Assembly (NCBI RefSeq): GCF_011682175.1
Contig: NZ_WHJG01000007.1
Location: 62,001-126,000 of the forward strand
Length of the DNA stretch: 64,000 nucleotides
From: Massilia frigida
GTDB lineage: Bacteria > Pseudomonadota > Gammaproteobacteria > Burkholderiales > Burkholderiaceae_D
Direction of reading: 5' to 3'
The notes beneath the pieces were generated by a model. That model saw only the letters and a list, made by a program, of their open reading frames with translations. It did no database searches and was not told the origin of the DNA. The translations under genes were made by a program, and so were the position numbers. This document shows positions 46,061 to 56,592 of this stretch, piece by piece. The first letter of the stretch is position 1. Each line of letters starts with the position of its first letter.

Positions 46061-48904
46061 TTACAGGAACTTGTAGTTCAGACGTGCATAGAACGTGCGA
46101 CCCAGCGGGTTGGTGAACGTCGCATCGTAACCGACCTGGAAGTTGGCGCCGTTACGCGACGATGGTGGATCTTCGTCCGCGATGTTCTTGATACCGAAGG
46201 TCATGCTCACGTTTTTCATCGGTTTCCAGCCCAGCGTTGCGTCAAACGTCGAATAGGCATCGACCTTGCGCACCAGCGGGTAGGTAGCACTGATCAGCGA
46301 TGGATCGGTGTAGTCTTCGTAGCCTTTGGTGTAGTTATGCGTCACCGAAGCGTTCCACTGGCCGATGCCGTAGGTCATGCTCAGCATGTGGCGGAATTTC
46401 GGGGTTGGACCGAAATCCTTGAACGAACCCAGATCGCTCACTTCCGGCGAACCTTCGTACTGGTAGCCGTGCTTGGTGTACTTGGTCGCATCGTAGTTCG
46501 CGCCCACGGTACCCATATCGCCCATCTTCTGGCGATAGTTCAGGTTCAAGTCGACACCAGCGGCGTAGAACTTGCCGGTGTTGACGCGTGGCAGGGCCAC
46601 GTACGCCAGCGGGAAATCCTTGTTGGTGCTGCCGCGGATAGGATCTTTTTCCGATCCTGGCAAGCCTGGAGCGATCGACGGATCATAGCGGTAGTACTGG
46701 TTGATGTTGCCAGCCGGATCACCGAGTACCGTGTTTTCCGACATCGCATTGATCGACTTGTCGATTTTCACGTTCCAGTAGTCGAGCGAACCGCTGATGG
46801 TCGCGGTTGGCTGGAACACCAGACCCAGGGTGAACTGTTTCGATTTTTCCGGTTTCAGATCCGGAGTGCCGCTGTTCTGGGTGGTCAGCTGGACCGAGCA
46901 CTCATCCTGCAGTTCGCCCACTGGGTTGATGCTGTTGACAGGCACGCCGTTCGGGCAACGCACCGGGTCGTGGAAGTTCGACGAGGTGTTGTTCAGCGCC
47001 TTCGGATTCAGGTTGTCGACCAGGGTCGGTGCGCGGAAGCCGCGCGCCACCGCACCGCGCGCCATGATCACGGTGCTTGGACGATAGGTGAAGCCGACTT
47101 TCGGGCTCAGGTTGTCGAACTCGGTACCGAAACCGTTTTTGTATTTGTCGTAGCGCGCAGCAAGGTTCAATTCCACGCTCTTAACGACTGGAATCACCAC
47201 TTCGCTGAACAGTCCGAACACTTTACGGTCGCCGATCACGCCAGGAATTTCACCGGCACCACCGACTTCGTCACCGGACGACAGAACTGGCGAGGAGACC
47301 TGGGTCAGCGTTTCCTTGCGGAAGGAAGTACCAACCGAGAAGCCAACCGCGCCAGCAGGCATGGTGAACAGCTCTTTGGAGACGCGGAAGTCGAACTCTT
47401 TCGACACCGAGGTACCGCCGTTTTCAAAGCCGCTCAGCTGCGAACCGAGCAAGGCTGCCAGGCTGGCCGCATCCTGGGTGCCGAACACATTGATCTCGCC
47501 GGAATCGACCAGCGGTTTCAGTTTGGCATAGCTGAACTTGCCTGGACCGAACTGGATCTCGACTTCGTTCTTGCCGTAGGTCAGTGCGGTATCGTAATCC
47601 CAGCCCGCCATATTGCCTTTGGCGCCAACCACGATACGGGTGTTCTCGGTCTTGGTCAGGTCGTTGCGGCCGCCGCCGGCGACGGTGCGCCAGGTGCCGG
47701 ACATTGGGCCGGTCGGGGTCACATCCATATCGGCCGCGAGCGTGGTTTCAGCCGTGGTGACGGAGCCGTTCGGCATTTTGTAGCCAGCCGGCAGGATCAG
47801 GCCCTTCGGCAGCTTGATGGTCTTCGGATAGAAACGGCCATTCGCCGGATACGTCATGGGCTTGGTGTACGGGGCCGGCGAGGCGGCCGCGATCATCTTG
47901 TCGCGGGTGTACGCCGCTTCGGCGAACAGCTCGTGGTTTTCATTGATCTTGAATACGCCGCGCGTGACGAGGTTGTCGTGCTTGGCTTCAGGAACCAGAT
48001 CGATGTACTTGACGTAGTCGGTGCCGCAGCCTTTTTCGCTGTTGACGACCAGGCTGAATTCATCGTTCTTGCAGCCGTTGTAGCGGTACGGATTGACGCC
48101 CACGTACTTGTTGCCGAGGGTATCGCTGAAATTCAGGTTGGGCACGCCGTTACGCGGCGACGACTTGTTGATGCCCAGGTCTTCACGCACCGAGGTGGTC
48201 GAGAAGCTGCGGTCGGAAGCGCGCAGCTTGTCGTTTTCTTCGTGGTTGGCGCTGAACAGGATGTTGAAACGGTCGGTCGCGATGTCGCCGAAGCCGCCGG
48301 TCAGGTTAAAGCTGGTGGTATTGCCGCCGCCCTGGTCGACGTGGGTCTTGTAGGCCGATACTTCCATCCCTTTGTAGTCTTTTTTGAGGATGAAGTTGAT
48401 CACGCCCGCCACCGCATCGGCGCCGTACACAGCCGAGGCGCCGTCGCGCAGCACTTCGATGCGTTCGATGGCCGACAGCGGAATCGAGTTCAAGTCGACC
48501 GGGTTGTTGCCGACCGCATAGTTCGCCACCCGGCGGCCGTTCAGCAGCACCAGGGTGTAGCGGGCGCCCAGGGCGCGCAGGTTGGCGGTCGATGGCACGC
48601 CGGAGGCGCCCACGTTGTTGGCGGACACGCCGCCACCGAAGTTACCCGGGATCAGATTGACCAGATCCTGGGCCGAAGTGGCGCCGGTGCGCTCGATATC
48701 TTCGCGCTTGATAATGGTGATCGGCATTGCGGTTTCAGCGGCCAGGCGTTTGATCGACGAGCCGGTGATCTCGACGCGCTGCATCGAATTGTCCTGGGAA
48801 GCGGTCTGCGCCACGGCAGGCAGTGCTGCGAGGCCAAGGCCGACGGCGATACCGCCCGAAAAAACCAGGCGCAATGAACGCGATAAAACGGTTTCCGTCA
48901 TCAT
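46061..48904 (-). CDS. TonB-dependent receptor, type C
   Basis: 947-residue outer-membrane receptor on the opposite strand to the other four. Signal peptide (FSGGIAVGLGLAALPAVAQT), plug (about 42-165) with VEITGSSIKRLAAETAMPIT, NLRALGARYTLVLLNGRRVANY and VERIEVLRDGASAVYGADAVAG-type motif (here AIERIEVLRDGAS), barrel ending LNYKFL. Landmarks: VARGFRAPTLVDNLNPKALNN, VRCPNGVPVNS, NIADEDPPSSRNGANFQVGYD. The start MMTETV has AAGGGA upstream. It belongs to the same broad group as types A and B but is not a close duplicate of any other in the window. Confidence 0.92.
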   Translation of the reverse strand: MMTETVLSRSLRLVFSGGIAVGLGLAALPAVAQTASQDNSMQRVEITGSSIKRLAAETAMPITIIKREDIERTGATSAQDLVNLIPGNFGGGVSANNVGASGVPSTANLRALGARYTLVLLNGRRVANYAVGNNPVDLNSIPLSAIERIEVLRDGASAVYGADAVAGVINFILKKDYKGMEVSAYKTHVDQGGGNTTSFNLTGGFGDIATDRFNILFSANHEENDKLRASDRSFSTTSVREDLGINKSSPRNGVPNLNFSDTLGNKYVGVNPYRYNGCKNDEFSLVVNSEKGCGTDYVKYIDLVPEAKHDNLVTRGVFKINENHELFAEAAYTRDKMIAAASPAPYTKPMTYPANGRFYPKTIKLPKGLILPAGYKMPNGSVTTAETTLAADMDVTPTGPMSGTWRTVAGGGRNDLTKTENTRIVVGAKGNMAGWDYDTALTYGKNEVEIQFGPGKFSYAKLKPLVDSGEINVFGTQDAASLAALLGSQLSGFENGGTSVSKEFDFRVSKELFTMPAGAVGFSVGTSFRKETLTQVSSPVLSSGDEVGGAGEIPGVIGDRKVFGLFSEVVIPVVKSVELNLAARYDKYKNGFGTEFDNLSPKVGFTYRPSTVIMARGAVARGFRAPTLVDNLNPKALNNTSSNFHDPVRCPNGVPVNSINPVGELQDECSVQLTTQNSGTPDLKPEKSKQFTLGLVFQPTATISGSLDYWNVKIDKSINAMSENTVLGDPAGNINQYYRYDPSIAPGLPGSEKDPIRGSTNKDFPLAYVALPRVNTGKFYAAGVDLNLNYRQKMGDMGTVGANYDATKYTKHGYQYEGSPEVSDLGSFKDFGPTPKFRHMLSMTYGIGQWNASVTHNYTKGYEDYTDPSLISATYPLVRKVDAYSTFDATLGWKPMKNVSMTFGIKNIADEDPPSSRNGANFQVGYDATFTNPLGRTFYARLNYKFL

Positions 48905-49468
48905 GTGTGAATCCCTTGATTTATAAAATATTAGTATTAACACCATCTTTTGGATGATGCATCAATTTAAGTAGCGAACCTTGCGGTGGCCGGGTCCGGA
49001 TTGCGGAGTCCTTCCGGTGCAAGGTACAACCAGCCGAGCTCTTGGTAGCGCTGTCTCCCTCGGCTGAACTTCTTCACTTCGCTTAAAGCGACTTGTCGAT
49101 TGGCGTTCGACATCTATGCCTTTTTGCCAATCAAGCCCAAGATAGAAACATATGGGAATATTTGATGTCAATGGTAAATACGGAATATGTATATAAACAA
49201 CAGGATTGGTGTCGTATGCACGATTGCGCGGCATTTTTTTGCGTGCAAGCAGAGAAATTGTGATTGAATAAAGGTAATTGATTGCCGTGGTTTGCAATGC
49301 GCAGCCATGCCCACTCGTCGCGCAAGCCAATCCGATGCTGTTTGAAGCGCGCCTTGCCAGGTATGGCGCCGTTCGATATGCTGGCGCGCACGCCGGCCAC
49401 GCCGGCGGCGGCGCGCCGGGAAATCAGCGCAGTGCCGGAGCAGCCCCGCGCACCATGTCAGCGAACGG
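48905..49468. other. Intergenic region upstream of the type C receptor
   Basis: About 560 bases; AT-rich around 48905-48960 and 49130-49280, consistent with promoter DNA for the minus-strand receptor. No open frame looks like a gene and no terminator of aroG was recognised at its right end. Confidence 0.5.
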
Positions 49469-50530
49469 TTACAGGTCCTGGCGCAAGCGGCGCTCGCGCA
49501 CGGCCGCGGCCAGGCCTTCCAGCACCGCCACGCTGCTGTCCCAATCGATGCAGCCATCGGTGATCGACTGGCCATACACCAGTTCCTTGCCCGGCACCAG
49601 ATCCTGGCGCCCCGCCACCAGATGCGATTCCACCATCACGCCGACGATGCGTTCGTCGCCGCCGGCCACCTGGGCCGCGATGTCGGCGCACACCGGTATC
49701 TGGTTCTCCGGCTTCTTGGAGCTGTTGGCATGCGAAGCATCGATCATCAGGCGCGCCGCCAGGCCGAGTGCCGAGATCTGCTGGCATGCCAGTTCCACGC
49801 TGGCGGCGTCATAGTTGGGCGTCTTGCCACCACGCAGGATGACGTGGCAATCCTCATTGCCGTTGGTCGAGACGATCGCCGAATGCCCGCCCTTGGTCAC
49901 CGACAGGAAATGGTGCGGATGCGAGGCCGCCTTGATCGCTTCGACCGCGATCTTGATGTTGCCGTCAGTCCCATTCTTGAAGCCCACCGGACAGGACAGC
50001 CCGGACGCCAGTTCGCGGTGCACCTGCGACTCGGTGGTGCGCGCGCCGATCGCGCCCCAGCTGATCAGGTCGGCGATGTACTGCGGACTGATCACGTCCA
50101 GGTACTCGGTCCCGGCCGGCAAGCCCAGCTCGTTGATGTCGCGCAGCAGTTCGCGCGCCATGCGCAGCCCGTCGTTGATGCGGAAGCTGTTATCCATGTA
50201 CGGATCGTTGATCAAGCCCTTCCAGCCGACCGTGGTGCGCGGCTTTTCGAAGTACACGCGCATGACGATTTCCAGCTCGCCCTTGAAGCGTTCGCGCTCG
50301 CCCACCAGGCGGTGCGCGTATTCCATGGCGGCACGGGTATCGTGGATCGAGCACGGGCCGATCACCACCATCAGGCGGTCGTCCTGGCCGTGCAGGATGC
50401 GGTGCAGCGCCACGCGCGAGGAGCTGGCGGTCTGCTCGGCGCGCTCGCCGCAGGCAAACTCGCGGATCAGGTGGGAGGGTGGCGTCAGTTCCTTCATTTC
50501 GCGGATGCGTAGATCGTCGGTGCGTGGCAT
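49469..50530 (-). CDS. aroG: 3-deoxy-7-phosphoheptulonate (DAHP) synthase, class I
   Basis: 353-residue AroF/G/H-type enzyme catalysing the first step of aromatic amino acid synthesis (PEP plus erythrose-4-phosphate). VVIGPCSIHDTRAAMEYA, MRVYFEKPRTTVGWKGL, INDPYMDNSF, GARTTESQVHREL, PVGFKNGTDG, ILRGGKTPNYD and MIDASHANSSKKPENQ are the family blocks. ATG 50530 has GGAG seven bases upstream and gives MPRTDDLRIREMKEL. Upstream lie an intrinsic terminator and a Phe/Tyr-rich leader peptide, so expression is probably attenuated by aromatic amino-acid supply in addition to enzyme feedback. Confidence 0.96.
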   Translation of the reverse strand: MPRTDDLRIREMKELTPPSHLIREFACGERAEQTASSSRVALHRILHGQDDRLMVVIGPCSIHDTRAAMEYAHRLVGERERFKGELEIVMRVYFEKPRTTVGWKGLINDPYMDNSFRINDGLRMARELLRDINELGLPAGTEYLDVISPQYIADLISWGAIGARTTESQVHRELASGLSCPVGFKNGTDGNIKIAVEAIKAASHPHHFLSVTKGGHSAIVSTNGNEDCHVILRGGKTPNYDAASVELACQQISALGLAARLMIDASHANSSKKPENQIPVCADIAAQVAGGDERIVGVMVESHLVAGRQDLVPGKELVYGQSITDGCIDWDSSVAVLEGLAAAVRERRLRQDL

Positions 50531-50580: not shown

Positions 50581-50610
50581 AAAAAAAAACCGCCATGACT
50601 GGCGGTTTTT
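50581..50610 (-). terminator. Attenuator terminator of the aroG leader
   Basis: On the minus strand: arm AAAACCGCC, loop AGTCAT, arm GGCGGTTTT, then further T's (nine-T tract). It lies 43 bases downstream of the leader peptide stop and about 50 bases before the aroG start. The leader-peptide segment GGCGGT (50660-50665) is complementary to the ACCGCC of the first arm, giving an alternative antiterminator pairing. Confidence 0.85.
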
Positions 50611-50652
50611 CTGGATATTGCAAGATCTCGTCGTTGCTACGTGAACCTGCCG

Positions 50653-50721
50653 CTACTCCACCGCCTTTGGGTTGGAATTGCTAAAGTAAAAGTAGCAGGT
50701 AAAGAAAACGACGTTGTGCAT
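50653..50721 (-). CDS. aroG leader peptide (Phe/Tyr attenuation)
   Basis: A 22-codon open frame, ATG at 50721 to TAG at 50653, whose residues 4-14 read VVFFTCYFYFS: four Phe and two Tyr within eight codons (6, 7, 10-13). It is immediately followed by an intrinsic terminator and then aroG on the same strand. This is the layout of E. coli pheL-type control: ribosome stalling at aromatic codons would free GGCGGT to pair with the terminator arm and allow read-through into aroG. Ribosome site is weak (GGA about nine bases upstream). Too short to be found by length-based gene calling. Confidence 0.8.
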   Translation of the reverse strand: MHNVVFFTCYFYFSNSNPKAVE

Positions 50722-51036
50722 GGCAAGAATCCAAAAGTGATGCAACGACTATATCAACAATTCCTGCAAATTGGCAAGCTGTTTTATCGGCGCCCGTCAA
50801 GACAAGACGCTACAAGCGGTTGCGCCTTCCCCACAATGGGCACGCCGATGCCTGTCACCTTTGATCCAGATCAGTCGTGGCGGCGCCTCCGGTGCAAAAC
50901 TCGGTGCATCGCGTCCCCATCGAAGCTTGCGCCAGATCAAACCACGGTCAACTTTTCCAAATAGATAGATTGAGCTGAATCATGGTCATGTCGGCGCGCA
51001 GCGGGCGGGGCAGTCAATCGTTTTCCGGAGTCCGCA
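50722..51036. other. Divergent region between the aroG leader and a TonB receptor
   Basis: About 315 bases, no gene seen. Promoters for aroG (minus) and the type A' receptor (plus) must lie here; none could be assigned with confidence. Confidence 0.45.
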
Positions 51037-53886
51037 ATGAACGCATCGCGCATATCGTGCTCGCTCAGGCGCCTGGTCGCCGGCGGCGGCGGGGCCAGTC
51101 TGGCCCTGCTTCCGTTCGCCGTCCAGGCGCAAGCCCCGGCCCCGCCCGGCCCCATGCCGCGGGTGGAAATCACCGGCACCCATATCCCGCGCGCCACGGC
51201 CGAAACCGCGGCCGCCGTCATCACCCTGAACCGCAACGATATCGAACGGTCCGGCAAAACCACGGTGGCCGAACTGCTGCAAACCCTGGCCGTCGACAAC
51301 CAGGGCTCGGTGCCGTCCAGTTTCGGCGGCGGCTTTGCCAGCGGCGCCTCCGGCATCTCGCTGCGCGGCCTGGGCGCCGCCTCCACCCTGGTCCTGCTCA
51401 ACGGGCGCAGGGTGGCGCCCTATGGCCTGGCCGACGATGGCCAGAAAATGTTTTCCGACCTGAACATCATCCCGGCCGACGCCGTCGAGCGCATCGACGT
51501 GCTCAAGGATGGCGCCTCGGCCATCTACGGCTCGGACGCGATCGCCGGCGTGGTCAACGTGATCCTGCGGCGCGACTTCCACGGCACCACGCTGCGCGCC
51601 AGCTTCGGCCAGTCGCGCGAGCGCGACGGCAACGATGGGGTCGCCTCGCTCACCTGGGGCGGCGGCGACCTGGAGGCCGACCGCTACAACGTGCTGGCCA
51701 GCCTCGAGTACGGGCGGCGCGGCGCGATCTGGAACCGCGAGCGCGCCGGGCGCGGCCACATCGGGCGCGGCGACCTGCGCGACTGGGGCTTCAGCGCCCA
51801 GGAGTCGCTCGGCGGCACCGGCGCCATCACCGCCAGCAATACCGCCGGCAGCGCCATCAACGGCAACGTGCGCAATCCCGCTACGCTCGATTACGATAAC
51901 CGCGGCAACCTGGCCGGGGCCGGTTTTACGCGCACCTTTCCGGGCGCCGCCTGCGCCGGCTTCACGTCCCATCCGCAGGGCGACCCCGGCGGCGGCTGCC
52001 TGATCGATGCCGCGCAACGCTACAACCAGATCCAGCCGAGCCAGGAACGGATCAACTTTTTCGGGCGCGCCACCTTCCAGGCCACGCCGCGGGTGCAGGC
52101 CTACGCCGAGCTCAATCTGTACCGCAGCGTATCGGCCTCCTCCTCCACGCCCTCGGCGGTCAGCGGCGCGGTCGGCTATCCGGGCGGGCCGGTCAACAGT
52201 GCCGCCGTGGCGCTGGGCCCGGCCCATCCCGACAATCCCTACTTCGGTACGGCGGCGCGGCTGCGCTACATGGCCGCCGATATCGACCCGCGCATGAGCC
52301 AGATCGATTCCGATTTCGTGCGCCTGCTGGCCGGCGCCAAGGCCACGCTCGGGCCGTGGGAGGTCGATACCGCCCTGCTGTTCTCGCAAAACCAGGTCAG
52401 CAACGAACGCAGCGGATATCCGCAGCGCGACGTCGCGTTCGCGCTGCTCAATCCGAGCCCGGCCAACGTGGCGGCGGCCAGCGCCAATCCGGCCTATGCC
52501 GCGCTGGCGCCGGGCAGCGTGTGGCGCATCGCCGAAAACGCCGCCCTGAACCCGCCGGCCCTGTACGCGGCGCTGGCGCCGGCCAGGACCAACGATGCCA
52601 GGAGCCGCATCGCGCAGGCCGACCTGCGCGCCTCGCGCCAGCTGGCCGAGCTGCCCGGCGGCGCGCTCGGAGTCGCCATCGGCGCCGACTTCCGGCACGA
52701 ATCGGCCGAGCTGGCCCCCACCCCCGGTACCGAGCGCGGCAACGTCATCGGCCTCGGTTACTCGGCCTACAAGGGTAGCCGCAACGTGGCCGCGCTGTAC
52801 GGCGAGGTGCTCGCGCCCGTGCACCCGGCGCTCGAACTGTCGGCCGCGCTGCGCGCCGACCGCTACACCGACGCCGGCGACTCGTACACGCCCAAGTTCG
52901 GCGTCAAATGGACGCCGCTACGCACTTTCGCCTTGCGCGGCACGTATGCGCGCGGTTTTCGCGCGCCCAGCACGGCCGAAAACGGGGTCGGCGGCCTGGC
53001 CGCGTATTCCACCGCGGTCGACCCGCTGCGCTGCAGCCTGGGCGTCGAGATCGCCTGCAACCCGGCCCAGGTCGCCATCATCACCTCGCCCAATCCCGCC
53101 TTGTCGCCCGAAAAATCGCGCAGCGTCAATGTCGGCATGGTGTGGGACCCGTACCGGCGCACCACGGTCTCGCTCGACCTGTGGGAAATCAAGCGCAAGA
53201 ACGACATCAACCAGGAACAGAGCGACGCCGCCATCCTGGCCGGCCGCATCGCGCGCGACCCGAGCGGCGCCACCCGGCCCGGCGACCCCGGCCCGATCGC
53301 GGCGGTGCTGGCCAGCTACGTCAATTCGGCGCGCACCCAGGTGCGCGGCGCCGACCTCGACCTGCGCCAGCGCTTCGACTTCGGACCGGGCAGCGGCGAA
53401 GCGAGCATGGATGCCAGGTGGACCCACCTGTTCAAGTGGCAGCGTACCGAGCAGGACGGCAGCATGCGCGACTACGCCGGCACCCACGGCAACTGCGACG
53501 TCACCAACTGCATCGGCACGCCCGACGACCGGGTCAATTTCAGGCTGTCGTGGGAGCGCGCGGCCTGGCGCGTATCGGCCAACGTGAACTACCGCGGCGC
53601 CATCAAGAATACCCTGTTCAAGAACGACCCCGCCGCTTGCGCCAGCCACTTCGCCGACGGCAATCCGGCCCCGGTCGACTGCGAACTGCCTTCCTTCACC
53701 ACGGTCGACCTGAGCTTGCGCTGGAAGCCGGCGCCACGCATCGAAGTATTCGGCTCGGCGCAAAACATCTTCGACCAGCTCGCCCCGCTCGATCCGCTGA
53801 CCTACGGCGCCACTGCCTATAACCCGCTCGACCATGCGGGCGCCGTGGGGCGCTTTTTCACGGCGGGCGTGCGCTACACCTTTTAG
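51037..53886 (+). CDS. TonB-dependent receptor, type A' (paralogue of 38996)
   Basis: 949-residue outer-membrane receptor. Signal peptide (LVAGGGGASLALLPFAVQAQA), plug (about 42-170) with VEITGTHIPRATAETAAAV, SLRGLGAASTLVLLNGRR and RIDVLKDGASAIYGSDAIAGV, barrel ending VRYTF. It shares the type A landmarks FALRGTYARGFRAPS, YAGTHGNCDVTNCIGTP and NIFDQLAPLDPLTYGATAYNPLD-type end with the receptor at 38996, but diverges in the external loops. GC content is visibly higher than in the 38996 copy, with more CGC/GCC codons. Confidence 0.93.
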   Translation: MNASRISCSLRRLVAGGGGASLALLPFAVQAQAPAPPGPMPRVEITGTHIPRATAETAAAVITLNRNDIERSGKTTVAELLQTLAVDNQGSVPSSFGGGFASGASGISLRGLGAASTLVLLNGRRVAPYGLADDGQKMFSDLNIIPADAVERIDVLKDGASAIYGSDAIAGVVNVILRRDFHGTTLRASFGQSRERDGNDGVASLTWGGGDLEADRYNVLASLEYGRRGAIWNRERAGRGHIGRGDLRDWGFSAQESLGGTGAITASNTAGSAINGNVRNPATLDYDNRGNLAGAGFTRTFPGAACAGFTSHPQGDPGGGCLIDAAQRYNQIQPSQERINFFGRATFQATPRVQAYAELNLYRSVSASSSTPSAVSGAVGYPGGPVNSAAVALGPAHPDNPYFGTAARLRYMAADIDPRMSQIDSDFVRLLAGAKATLGPWEVDTALLFSQNQVSNERSGYPQRDVAFALLNPSPANVAAASANPAYAALAPGSVWRIAENAALNPPALYAALAPARTNDARSRIAQADLRASRQLAELPGGALGVAIGADFRHESAELAPTPGTERGNVIGLGYSAYKGSRNVAALYGEVLAPVHPALELSAALRADRYTDAGDSYTPKFGVKWTPLRTFALRGTYARGFRAPSTAENGVGGLAAYSTAVDPLRCSLGVEIACNPAQVAIITSPNPALSPEKSRSVNVGMVWDPYRRTTVSLDLWEIKRKNDINQEQSDAAILAGRIARDPSGATRPGDPGPIAAVLASYVNSARTQVRGADLDLRQRFDFGPGSGEASMDARWTHLFKWQRTEQDGSMRDYAGTHGNCDVTNCIGTPDDRVNFRLSWERAAWRVSANVNYRGAIKNTLFKNDPAACASHFADGNPAPVDCELPSFTTVDLSLRWKPAPRIEVFGSAQNIFDQLAPLDPLTYGATAYNPLDHAGAVGRFFTAGVRYTF

Positions 53887-53925: not shown

Positions 53926-56592
53926 ATGATTGAAAAAGCCTTATCCGCCGCCATCGGCCGCGTGTGCGCCGGCGGCGCCCTCCTCGGCGCCGGCGTGCTG
54001 TCCCTGCCCGCACAGGCCCAGGCGCCCGCCGACGCCTCCCAGACCATGCAAAAAGTCGACATCGTCGGCACCTCGATCAGGCGGCGCCTGGAGGCGCAAA
54101 CCGCATTGCCGATCACCTCGCTGCGGGCCGAAGACTTCGCCAAGCAGGGCCTCTCGACCGCGCAGGAAGTGCTGGCCACGATCCCCATGAACCAGACCTC
54201 GACCGGCGCCAGCCAGTCGGTTGGCTCCGGCACCGGCGGGCGCGCCACGGCCAACCTGCGCGGCCTCGGTGGCGACAAGACCCTGGTGCTGCTCAACGGC
54301 CGGCGCCTGGCCAACCATCCCTTCTTTGCCGACACGGTCGACCTGAACATCATTCCCGTCGCCGCGCTCGACCGGGTCGAGGTGCTGCGCGACGGCGCCT
54401 CGGCCATCTACGGCAGCGATGCCATCGGCGGCGTGATCAACTTCGTCACCAAGCGCTCCTACCGCGGCCTGGAAGTGAGCGTGGAAGCGTACGAGCCGGT
54501 CGGCTCGGGCGGCGGCGACGCGCAGCGCGTCAACCTCATCGGCGGCTGGGGCGACCTGGCCACCGACGGCTACAACCTGCTCGGCATCGTCGACCTGCAC
54601 CGCCAATCCTCGCTGACGGCCACCGACCGCGACTTCGGGCGCACGGGCGTGCGCCCCGAGCGCGGCATGTACCAGACCAGCGGCACCACCTTCCCCGCCA
54701 ACTTCTATTCGGAGAACGACATCTCCGGCAATCCGAGCTTCGCCAGCGGTTGCCGTCCGCCCTACTCGATCCCCAACCGCACTGGCGCGGCGACCTGCCG
54801 CTTCGACTACACCCAGTTCGTCGACCTGATTCCACTGACCAAGCAGGAAACCTTCCTCGGCCGCTTCAGCAAGAAACTCGGCGCCGACCATAGCGCCACC
54901 CTGGAATACCTGCACAGCCGCAGCACCAACGAAGCGCGCGTGGCGCCGCCGCCGCTGGCCGGCATCGGCCTGACCATGACCAATACCAGCCCCTTCTATC
55001 CGGGCGCCGGCATCACCCCGGCCGTGGCCGGCCTCACCGGCGAGCCGCTCGACGTCAGCTGGCGGCCCCTGGTGACCGGCAAGCGCGAAGGCCTCGACGT
55101 GAGCCTGTCGGACCGCCTGCTGGCCAGCATGGAAGGCACGCTGGGCGGCTGGGACTACAACGCCGGCCTGTCGTACGCGGTGGGGCGGGCGCGCAGCGCG
55201 TTTACCAACGGCTACGTGATCGATGCGCGCCTGATCGAGGGCGTGGGCAACGGCTTGCTCAACCCGTTCGGCGAGCAGACTCCCGCCGGCAACGACTACC
55301 TGCGCCAGTCGCTGCTCCAGGGCGAATACTTGCGCGCCAAGATCAAGAGCGGCGCCATCGACTTCAAGGCCAGCCGCGAGCTGATGAACCTGCCCGCCGG
55401 CCCGCTCGGCTTCGCGCTGGGCGGCGAATTCCGGCGCGACGAAGCCGACTACCGCGTCGACCGCGCGCTGGCCAGCCAGGCGTCCAGTTCCGGCTACGCC
55501 GACGCCCAGGACCAGAGCGGCAGCCGCAACATCGGCGCCGTGTTCACCGAGTTCAACATCCCCGTCATCAAGGACCTTGAAGTCAACCTGGCCGCGCGCT
55601 ACGACGACTACACCGATTTCGGCCACAGCGTCAACCCCAAGGTGGCGCTGCGCTGGCAGCCCAGCAAGCAGGTACTGGTGCGCGGCTCGTTCAACAAGGG
55701 CTTCCGCGCCCCCACCCTGTACGATCTGCACGGGCCGCAAACCACCACCAACACCAGCAGCCCCTGGGATGATCCGGTGCTGTGTCCGGGCGGTACGGCG
55801 GCTCCGGGTGCCAATCCCAATCTCGCCTGCGACCAGCAGCAAAACCGGCGCCAGGGAGGCAACCCCGACGTCAAGCCGGAACGCTCGCGCACCTACAGCG
55901 CCGGGATCGTGCTCGAACCGACGCGCGACCTGACCTTGTCGCTCGACTACTGGGATATCCGGCTGAAGGACCAGATCAGCGCGCTGGCGGAGGAATCGAT
56001 CTTCGGCAACTACCAGAAATACCAGAACCTGTATTTCTACAATGCCGCCCGCACCCGGCTCGACTACGTGCTGACGATCACCCAGAACCTGGGCGAGGTC
56101 AAGACCCGCGGGGTCGACCTGGGACTGCTGTGGCGCCTTCAGCGCAGCCAGTGGGGCAATTTCACCGTGGGGGTCGATGGCACCTGGGTCGAGCGCTACG
56201 ACTACCAGAACGAGCGCAACGGGCCGTTCACCGTCAACGCGGGGCGCTATGCCGATGCCAGTCCGGTATTTCGCTGGCGACACAACGCCAGTCTGGGATG
56301 GACCCGGGGTCCCCTGAACATGACCCTGTCCAACCGCTACCTGTCCGGTTACGACGACCAGCCCGATGAAAACGGACTCGTGCCCGGCCGCGTGGGACAT
56401 TACTCCACCTGGAGCCTGGCAGGGACCTACACGGCCAAGCAGAAGGTCAGCGTGACCGCCGGCGTCAAGAACCTGCTCGACGACGACCCGCCCTTCACGG
56501 TCCAGAGTACGACCTTCCAGCAGGGCTACGATCCGCGCTACACGGATCCGCTCGGACGGACGTTTTACGTGAGGGCCACATACAAGTTCTGA
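53926..56592 (+). CDS. TonB-dependent receptor, type B' (paralogue of 42077)
   Basis: 888-residue outer-membrane receptor, 39 bases after type A'. Signal peptide ends SLPAQAQA; plug (about 38-165) with VDIVGTSIRRRLEAQTALPIT, NLRGLGGDKTLVLLNGRRLANHP and VLRDGASAIYGSDAIGGVINFVTK; barrel ending VRATYKF. Shared with 42077: GFRAPTLYDLHGP, VLCPGG, DYWDIRLKDQISALAEESIFGNYQ-type block, YDYQNERNGPF and FQQGYDPRYTDPLGR. The short gap to type A' suggests one transcript here, unlike the A-B pair, which is separated by a terminator. Confidence 0.93.
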   Translation: MIEKALSAAIGRVCAGGALLGAGVLSLPAQAQAPADASQTMQKVDIVGTSIRRRLEAQTALPITSLRAEDFAKQGLSTAQEVLATIPMNQTSTGASQSVGSGTGGRATANLRGLGGDKTLVLLNGRRLANHPFFADTVDLNIIPVAALDRVEVLRDGASAIYGSDAIGGVINFVTKRSYRGLEVSVEAYEPVGSGGGDAQRVNLIGGWGDLATDGYNLLGIVDLHRQSSLTATDRDFGRTGVRPERGMYQTSGTTFPANFYSENDISGNPSFASGCRPPYSIPNRTGAATCRFDYTQFVDLIPLTKQETFLGRFSKKLGADHSATLEYLHSRSTNEARVAPPPLAGIGLTMTNTSPFYPGAGITPAVAGLTGEPLDVSWRPLVTGKREGLDVSLSDRLLASMEGTLGGWDYNAGLSYAVGRARSAFTNGYVIDARLIEGVGNGLLNPFGEQTPAGNDYLRQSLLQGEYLRAKIKSGAIDFKASRELMNLPAGPLGFALGGEFRRDEADYRVDRALASQASSSGYADAQDQSGSRNIGAVFTEFNIPVIKDLEVNLAARYDDYTDFGHSVNPKVALRWQPSKQVLVRGSFNKGFRAPTLYDLHGPQTTTNTSSPWDDPVLCPGGTAAPGANPNLACDQQQNRRQGGNPDVKPERSRTYSAGIVLEPTRDLTLSLDYWDIRLKDQISALAEESIFGNYQKYQNLYFYNAARTRLDYVLTITQNLGEVKTRGVDLGLLWRLQRSQWGNFTVGVDGTWVERYDYQNERNGPFTVNAGRYADASPVFRWRHNASLGWTRGPLNMTLSNRYLSGYDDQPDENGLVPGRVGHYSTWSLAGTYTAKQKVSVTAGVKNLLDDDPPFTVQSTTFQQGYDPRYTDPLGRTFYVRATYKF

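Follow-up and report, generated by a model that had tools for sequence, protein, structure and literature searches.

We propose that aroG, the gene for 3-deoxy-7-phosphoheptulonate (DAHP) synthase, is preceded in Massilia frigida by a leader that is very probably a ribosome-mediated transcription attenuator. The signal would best be read as charged tRNA-Phe and tRNA-Tyr, with Trp added in many lineages, and the leader would probably turn aroG on when Phe or Tyr run short. An earlier note on this DNA had suggested ribosome-stall attenuation with mutually exclusive folds; conservation, covariation and a folding model now support that suggestion, and the support includes the placement of the terminator between a promoter-like site and aroG, with no upstream gene for it to end. 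By the window we mean the whole stretch of 64,000 nucleotides that was analysed.

Organization of the aroG upstream region

All the features are carried by the minus strand of the window, in the 5′ to 3′ order promoter-like site, leader ORF, terminator and aroG:

50748..50777, minus strand: sigma-70-type promoter-like site, TTGCCA-18-TATAGT (10/12 matches; mean in shuffles 0.4)
50653..50721, minus strand: leader ORF of 22 codons, MHNVVFFTCYFYFSNSNPKAVE, with ATG at 50721 and orthologous frames in relatives
50683..50706, minus strand: putative regulatory codons 6-13, FFTCYFYF (4 Phe, 2 Tyr), read from the frame
50695..50700, minus strand: region 1, ACCTGC, codons 8-9, partner of GCAGGT in distal region 2 (column pair 31/81)
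50645..50665, minus strand: region 2, across the leader stop codon, GGCGGT (antiterminator arm) and GCAGGT (folding, pair counts)
50601..50610, minus strand: region 3, AAAAACCGCC, terminator 5′ arm, which also pairs with GGCGGT of region 2 (fold, pair counts)
50581..50594, minus strand: region 4, GGCGGT and T-tract, terminator 3′ arm (fold, pair counts)
49469..50530, minus strand: aroG, DAHP synthase, the controlled gene, with ATG at 50530 (NCBIfam match)

The AroG product scores 581.4 bits against the NCBIfam AroG equivalog, whose cut-off is 568. The promoter-like site is reflected in the Oxalobacteraceae alignment by two column blocks, CTTGCCAA and, less marked, TATAGT, and from its position the transcript start is expected near 50741, some 20 bases 5′ of the leader ORF, which has a Shine-Dalgarno-like GGA in front of it at 50732-50730. 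The 22-codon frame with FFTCYFYF at codons 6-13 had already been described in the earlier note and is present on the minus strand at 50721-50653; it ends with the stop codon TAG (50655-50653) and has no Trp codons. Within its codons 19-21 (AAG GCG GTG) lies GGCGGT, at 50665-50660, which can pair, as had also been claimed, with ACCGCC of the terminator 5′ arm, the two being exactly complementary. The second segment of region 2, GCAGGT, is located after the leader stop (50650-50645) and is the partner of region 1.

The intrinsic terminator is formed by the RNA fold of the window locus and is situated between the leader ORF and the first structural gene, aroG. It covers 50610-50581 as a whole, with the 3′ arm GGCGGTTTTT at 50594-50585 and a T-tract that reaches 50581. 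The terminator of the earlier note is thus found, at a slightly different spacing: we counted 42 bases from the leader stop to the 5′ arm, where 43 had been given. A pattern scanner for terminators gave no listing at 50610-50581, probably because the A/T arms pair into the T-tract. The gene upstream of the region (51037-53886, plus strand), TonB-receptor-like by its look, is divergent from aroG. Since this neighbour runs the opposite way, there is no gene upstream whose transcript the terminator could end, and the possibility that it belongs to that gene was ruled out. Large genes that look like TonB-dependent receptors flank aroG on both sides, at 46061-48946 (minus), 51037-53886 (plus) and 53926-56592 (plus).

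Conservation of the leader and the terminator

Genome contigs were scanned for AroG and the best 80 named loci, closest relatives only, were listed (L004-L083). The genus of the window contributed 14 further loci, an AroG match at threshold being obtained in 15 of its 17 genomes, own genome included. Together with the three loci of the own genome (L001-L003) the set amounts to 97 loci, two rows of which duplicate exactly the 300 upstream bases of another row. When the own-genome paralogs L002 and L003 are removed and the own locus is kept, 95 loci remain. The earlier proposal had been made dependent on the conservation of the small frame and the terminator in close relatives, and both were located before aroG in 93 of these 95 loci, among the matches listed, which belong to the Oxalobacteraceae and the Burkholderia group. 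The aromatic codons and the stems are conserved, as expected in that proposal, in Massilia, Janthinobacterium, Duganella and Herbaspirillum, the last being represented only by two metagenome-assembled genomes that bear the name (L033, L043). Named genera among the carriers also include Telluria, Rugamonas, Pseudoduganella, Collimonas, Herminiimonas, Noviherbaspirillum, Undibacterium, Oxalicibacterium, Paraburkholderia, Burkholderia, Caballeronia and Mycetohabitans.

A fixed scan, defined as a frame with at least 4 aromatic residues in 8 followed by a terminator, was positive in 93 of the 97 loci on the sense strand versus 0 of 97 on the opposite strand, among the matches listed. Two of the four loci that were missed, L002 and L003, are diverged DAHP synthase paralogs of the own genome before which the scan found no leader and terminator. 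The third, L028, is an Oxalobacteraceae metagenome-assembled genome with neither leader nor terminator; its AroG row is identical to that of another member of the family, L100, which has a small genome of 2.2 Mb and also lacks both elements. In the fourth, Candidatus Burkholderia humilis (L080), the terminator is present and no leader frame was called; by eye, its leader is out of register with those of its relatives while the terminator is kept, perhaps through decay of the switch. In Duganella sp. SG902 (L016) the leader frame runs past the usual stop to 26 codons, with the pairing segments kept.

The order was surveyed with 130 genomes, and AroG matches with an E value of 1e-130 or lower were obtained at 90 places in 81 of them. 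All of these except the window's own were examined (89 places, L098-L186), a few paralogs being included and the upstream stretch of L150, the second of two tandem genes, being imperfectly cut. Leader and terminator were detected at 26 of the 89 aroG-like loci in sense and at none in antisense, the carriers falling in 13 of 32 family codes. L167 is among the near misses: its frame has a stretch of 8 residues of which 7 are aromatic, and the terminator was not called. The class survey comprised 143 genomes, from which 49 loci of a longer list were examined (one of them, L215, with only 262 upstream bases); 2 of 49 were positive in sense and 0 of 49 in antisense. One of the two carriers, L213, is from the window's own order, so that outside the order 1 of 48 loci carries leader and terminator (L191).

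These strand counts bear on the explanation by chance, by which a hydrophobic-looking frame would merely stand beside an ordinary terminator. Short frames are indeed common, and 17 frames of at least 20 codons overlap a 471-base stretch of this region; nevertheless, the same scan gave 93, 26 and 2 positives in sense against 0/97, 0/89 and 0/49 in antisense (the 97-locus set among the matches listed), and chance is refuted by the conservation observed, leaving it a negligible probability beside a conserved attenuator.

Presence and absence were placed on an AroG tree of 74 rows made by a quick method, in which 33 of 70 inner branches are weak and L080 was scored as negative. Carriers are confined to one clade of 46 rows (support 99), with non-carriers among them, and the state must have changed at least 8 times on the tree, which does not tell gains from losses. 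In this sample the leader with terminator is nearly confined to the order and is patchy there, by loss or by repeated gain. On the same tree L191, the sole carrier outside the order, groups with rows of family code f4, either by lateral transfer or as a matter of taxonomy.

Aromatic codons of the leader peptide

After dropping near-duplicates, two alignments were made, A1 with 43 of 67 Oxalobacteraceae-type leaders and A2 with 16 of 26 Burkholderia-type leaders; in the rows L060 and L092 the ATG nearer to the aromatic run was taken as the start instead of the one chosen by the script. The leaders are short ORFs, predicted to be translated, with a cluster of codons for the end products of the pathway. 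Phe is present in all of them (67/67 Oxalobacteraceae-type, 26/26 Burkholderia-type and 26/26 order-survey leaders, the last set including three of the first two types) and Tyr in nearly all (65/67, 26/26 and 23/26, respectively), while Trp is found in 12/67, 26/26 and 15/26. The peptides of the order survey are very different from each other and have mainly the aromatic run in common.

In the 43 aligned Oxalobacteraceae leaders the F-[YW]-F core (columns 37-45) is kept in 41, 43 and 43, and the run has TAC (30), TAT (9) or TGG (4) as its last codon but one. Over the whole aromatic block of this family the third codon positions vary no more than the others (0.285, 0.315 and 0.308 for the three positions), perhaps because the same bases serve an RNA helix. 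The 16 Burkholderia-type leaders, with the consensus MSAKFYFYFFW..., vary within their seven aromatic codons in 4 columns, all of them third-position, T/C and synonymous, a pattern with a probability of 0.006 if positions were random.

For Phe, the 93 leaders have 330 TTT and 92 TTC codons, against 18 TTT and 96 TTC in four long genes of the window; this preference may reflect tuning for stalling or an A/T-rich leader.

Competing helices in the leader RNA

Three pairings compete in the leader RNA: region 1 with region 2, region 2 with region 3 (the antiterminator) and region 3 with region 4 (the terminator). The terminator helices are 96.5 and 97.3% paired across the alignment and show changes on both sides at 150/175 and 161/166. 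The five core pairs of the antiterminator are paired in 99.5% of cells and four of them are invariant; considering that these pairs hardly vary, covariation is uninformative here, neither for nor against. For region 1 with GCAGGT, the column pair 31/81 is U-A in 25 leaders, G-C in 9, C-G in 1, U-G in 1 and unpaired in 7 (n = 43), and, in the single register that was counted in the 43 leaders, only 65.9 and 77.5% of the pairs are formed. The region 1:2 helix appears in single-sequence folds; RNAalifold on A1 recovered the terminator, with the region 1:2 helix absent from the consensus. For the whole named structure, 0 of 500 shuffles reach its covariation score, a control which is inflated by the relatedness of the leaders. 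Leaders of the Burkholderia type have another segment as region 1, TCCGCC in codons 2-4, which plays this part in their consensus fold, and the pair 37/45 of a small hairpin in them is U-A in 8 leaders, C-G in 6 and C-A in 2. The CCGCC terminator and the aromatic run are common to the Oxalobacteraceae, Burkholderia-type and most order-survey leaders. The competing helix ACCTGC:GCAGGT and the spread to Burkholderia with Trp in the leader go beyond what the earlier note had described.

A riboswitch or another known RNA family was considered as well and discarded, no Rfam family reaching its gathering score in the window. With lenient settings only sub-threshold matches were obtained, among them Leu_leader and Phe_leader (RF01859), the latter with 23.8 bits versus a gathering score of 55. 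The RNA around TTTAGCNATTCCA...GGCGGTGGAG is strongly conserved in sequence in the Oxalobacteraceae, as it would be if the switch sensed a protein or a small-molecule ligand in the manner of a riboswitch, the ORF being incidental. However, besides the Rfam result, the leader RNA differs between the Oxalobacteraceae and the Burkholderia type and yet the aromatic codons persist, and the aromatic block of the latter changes only synonymously, which makes ligand sensing highly improbable compared with reading by a ribosome.

Modelled ribosome positions and proposed mechanism

We modelled the ribosome with its A site at each leader codon and 14 bases occluded ahead, folding the RNA downstream and stopping before region 4; the readout was how probable it is that region 3 has by then paired with upstream RNA. 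With the ribosome on the best aromatic codon this probability exceeded 0.5 in 93 of 93 leaders. In the window's own leader it came to about 0.9 with the ribosome on the aromatic codons, to 0.0 with it at the stop and to 0.22 with none. We also applied a strict test on three states (stall >0.7, no ribosome <0.3, stop <0.3), and 65 of 93 leaders passed it. Dinucleotide shuffles made from 19 leaders passed it in 7 of 950 cases, while 10 of those 19 leaders pass unshuffled; a stall value above 0.7, taken by itself, is not so rare by chance, occurring in 14% of shuffles. Among the 28 failures, 27 fail on the no-ribosome or the stop state, with extremes of 0.82 without ribosome (L070) and 0.54 at the stop (L044), and one, L039, fails on the stall state (0.60). 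In the order survey a stall at the middle aromatic codon gave >0.7 in 26 of 26 leaders; the stop state was <0.3 in 22 of 26, four being not clearly terminating.

It is from this folding model that we take an antiterminator which excludes the terminator and is favoured by a stall on the regulatory codons. In the mechanism that we propose, RNA polymerase would start some 20 bases ahead of the leader frame. With charged tRNA-Phe and tRNA-Tyr plentiful, the translating ribosome would reach the leader stop codon and cover region 2, the terminator 3:4 would form and transcription would end before aroG. With Phe or Tyr short, the ribosome would stall in FFTCYFYF and cover region 1, leaving GGCGGT of region 2 free to pair with ACCGCC of region 3; the terminator would not form and aroG would be transcribed. 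In the case of no translation the region 1:2 helix would hold region 2, and termination would be the default in the window's leader. The no-ribosome state was <0.3 in only 10 of 26 order-survey leaders (16 of 26 not clearly terminating); therefore default termination without translation is not general.

A leader RNA terminated constitutively, acting mainly as a small RNA or as the message of a functional small hydrophobic peptide while another promoter drives aroG, would agree with the short transcript of about 160 bases that should be made whatever the switch does, and with the S-x-S-x-P that is conserved after the aromatic run in Oxalobacteraceae peptides. That post-run stretch is nevertheless missing from the Burkholderia-type and most order-survey leaders, in which the aromatic run and the CCGCC terminator persist. 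Taking into account also that the position directly before aroG is retained and that the three-state folding result is above shuffles, we regard such a product as very unlikely and retain transcription attenuation.

Other aromatic genes of the genome

The conserved leader pattern occurs once in the own genome, with no second copy. The 9.4 kb before pheA, a stretch which includes gyrA-like and serC-like frames, and the 6.3 kb before trpE were both negative for an aromatic leader with terminator when the fixed scan was applied on both strands. Of the genes covered, therefore, it is the one at the entry of the pathway that has control of this kind.

Relation to known attenuators

The E. coli pheA and pheST leaders contain a Phe-sensing leader peptide with mutually exclusive terminator and antiterminator. 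The aroG leaders are alike in this arrangement and differ in the target genes and in mixing Phe, Tyr and often Trp codons. The E. coli ilvGMEDA leader is multivalent, with codons of several end products, the branched-chain amino acids; it resembles the aroG leaders in gathering such codons in one leader and differs in the pathway.

The pheA and pheST leaders are named in PMC11802643, and trp and pheA are named as the genes under RNA-level control in PMC5343134. The closest precedent is in Corynebacterium glutamicum, where the leader AroR, with Phe-Tyr-Phe, attenuates the aroF operon and responds to Phe, not Tyr (Neshat et al. 2014, as given in PMC11802643); the aroR leader was found by RNA-seq (PMC4046766). 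It shares with our system the leader peptide before a DAHP synthase gene and attenuation by ribosome stalling; unlike it, C. glutamicum is an actinobacterium and, in the description on which this comparison is based, only Phe-Tyr-Phe is reported. In the Pseudomonadota, attenuation of DAHP synthase genes has been predicted before the DAHP synthase-tyrA operon of Vibrio (PMC1173090, Table 7) and, as an aroF attenuator motif, in Shewanella (PMC2659441, Table 3), where Camakaris et al. 1980 is cited for E. coli aroF-tyrA as an "attenuator sensing tyr-tRNA". These are likewise DAHP synthase genes; unlike ours they are of the aroF type, with tyrA in Vibrio, and in the descriptions on which this comparison is based no leader peptide of the aroG type is shown for them. 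An attenuator was also predicted before the gyrA-serC-pheA-tyrA supraoperon of Bordetella parapertussis (PMC1173090, Table 7), again with aromatic genes of a member of the Burkholderiales; it does not concern aroG, and the window's genome has no aromatic leader in the pheA stretch scanned above.

The earlier note had seen in the attenuation of DAHP synthase a different control point for this group. As regards the enzyme, aroR-aroF came before; as regards aroG of the Burkholderiales, no description of an attenuator was found in the literature searched, supplementary tables, most subscription papers and preprints being outside its reach. The principle and a DAHP synthase precedent are thus known, and the widespread Burkholderiales version before aroG appears to be undescribed in that literature. 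The 82 short 5′UTRs reported for B. cenocepacia in Table S3 of PMC5688073 may include that of aroG.

Meaning for the Burkholderiales

A more ambitious reading, which we offer only tentatively and consider rather doubtful, is that of an ancestral, multivalent attenuator of the Burkholderiales which would read the supply of Phe and Tyr together, with Trp added in the Burkholderia group and in several further families, and which would be the main gene-level control of shikimate entry in place of the separate TyrR/TrpR repressors of the enteric isozymes. Leaders of 22 codons fall below the usual limits of gene callers, and the attenuator therefore matters for annotation. It could serve as a system for asking how one leader weighs several amino acids, and it is of relevance to the engineering of aromatic production in these bacteria. 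If the model holds, the first committed enzyme of aromatic synthesis would be under a switch coupled to translation in a large group of bacteria associated with soil and plants.
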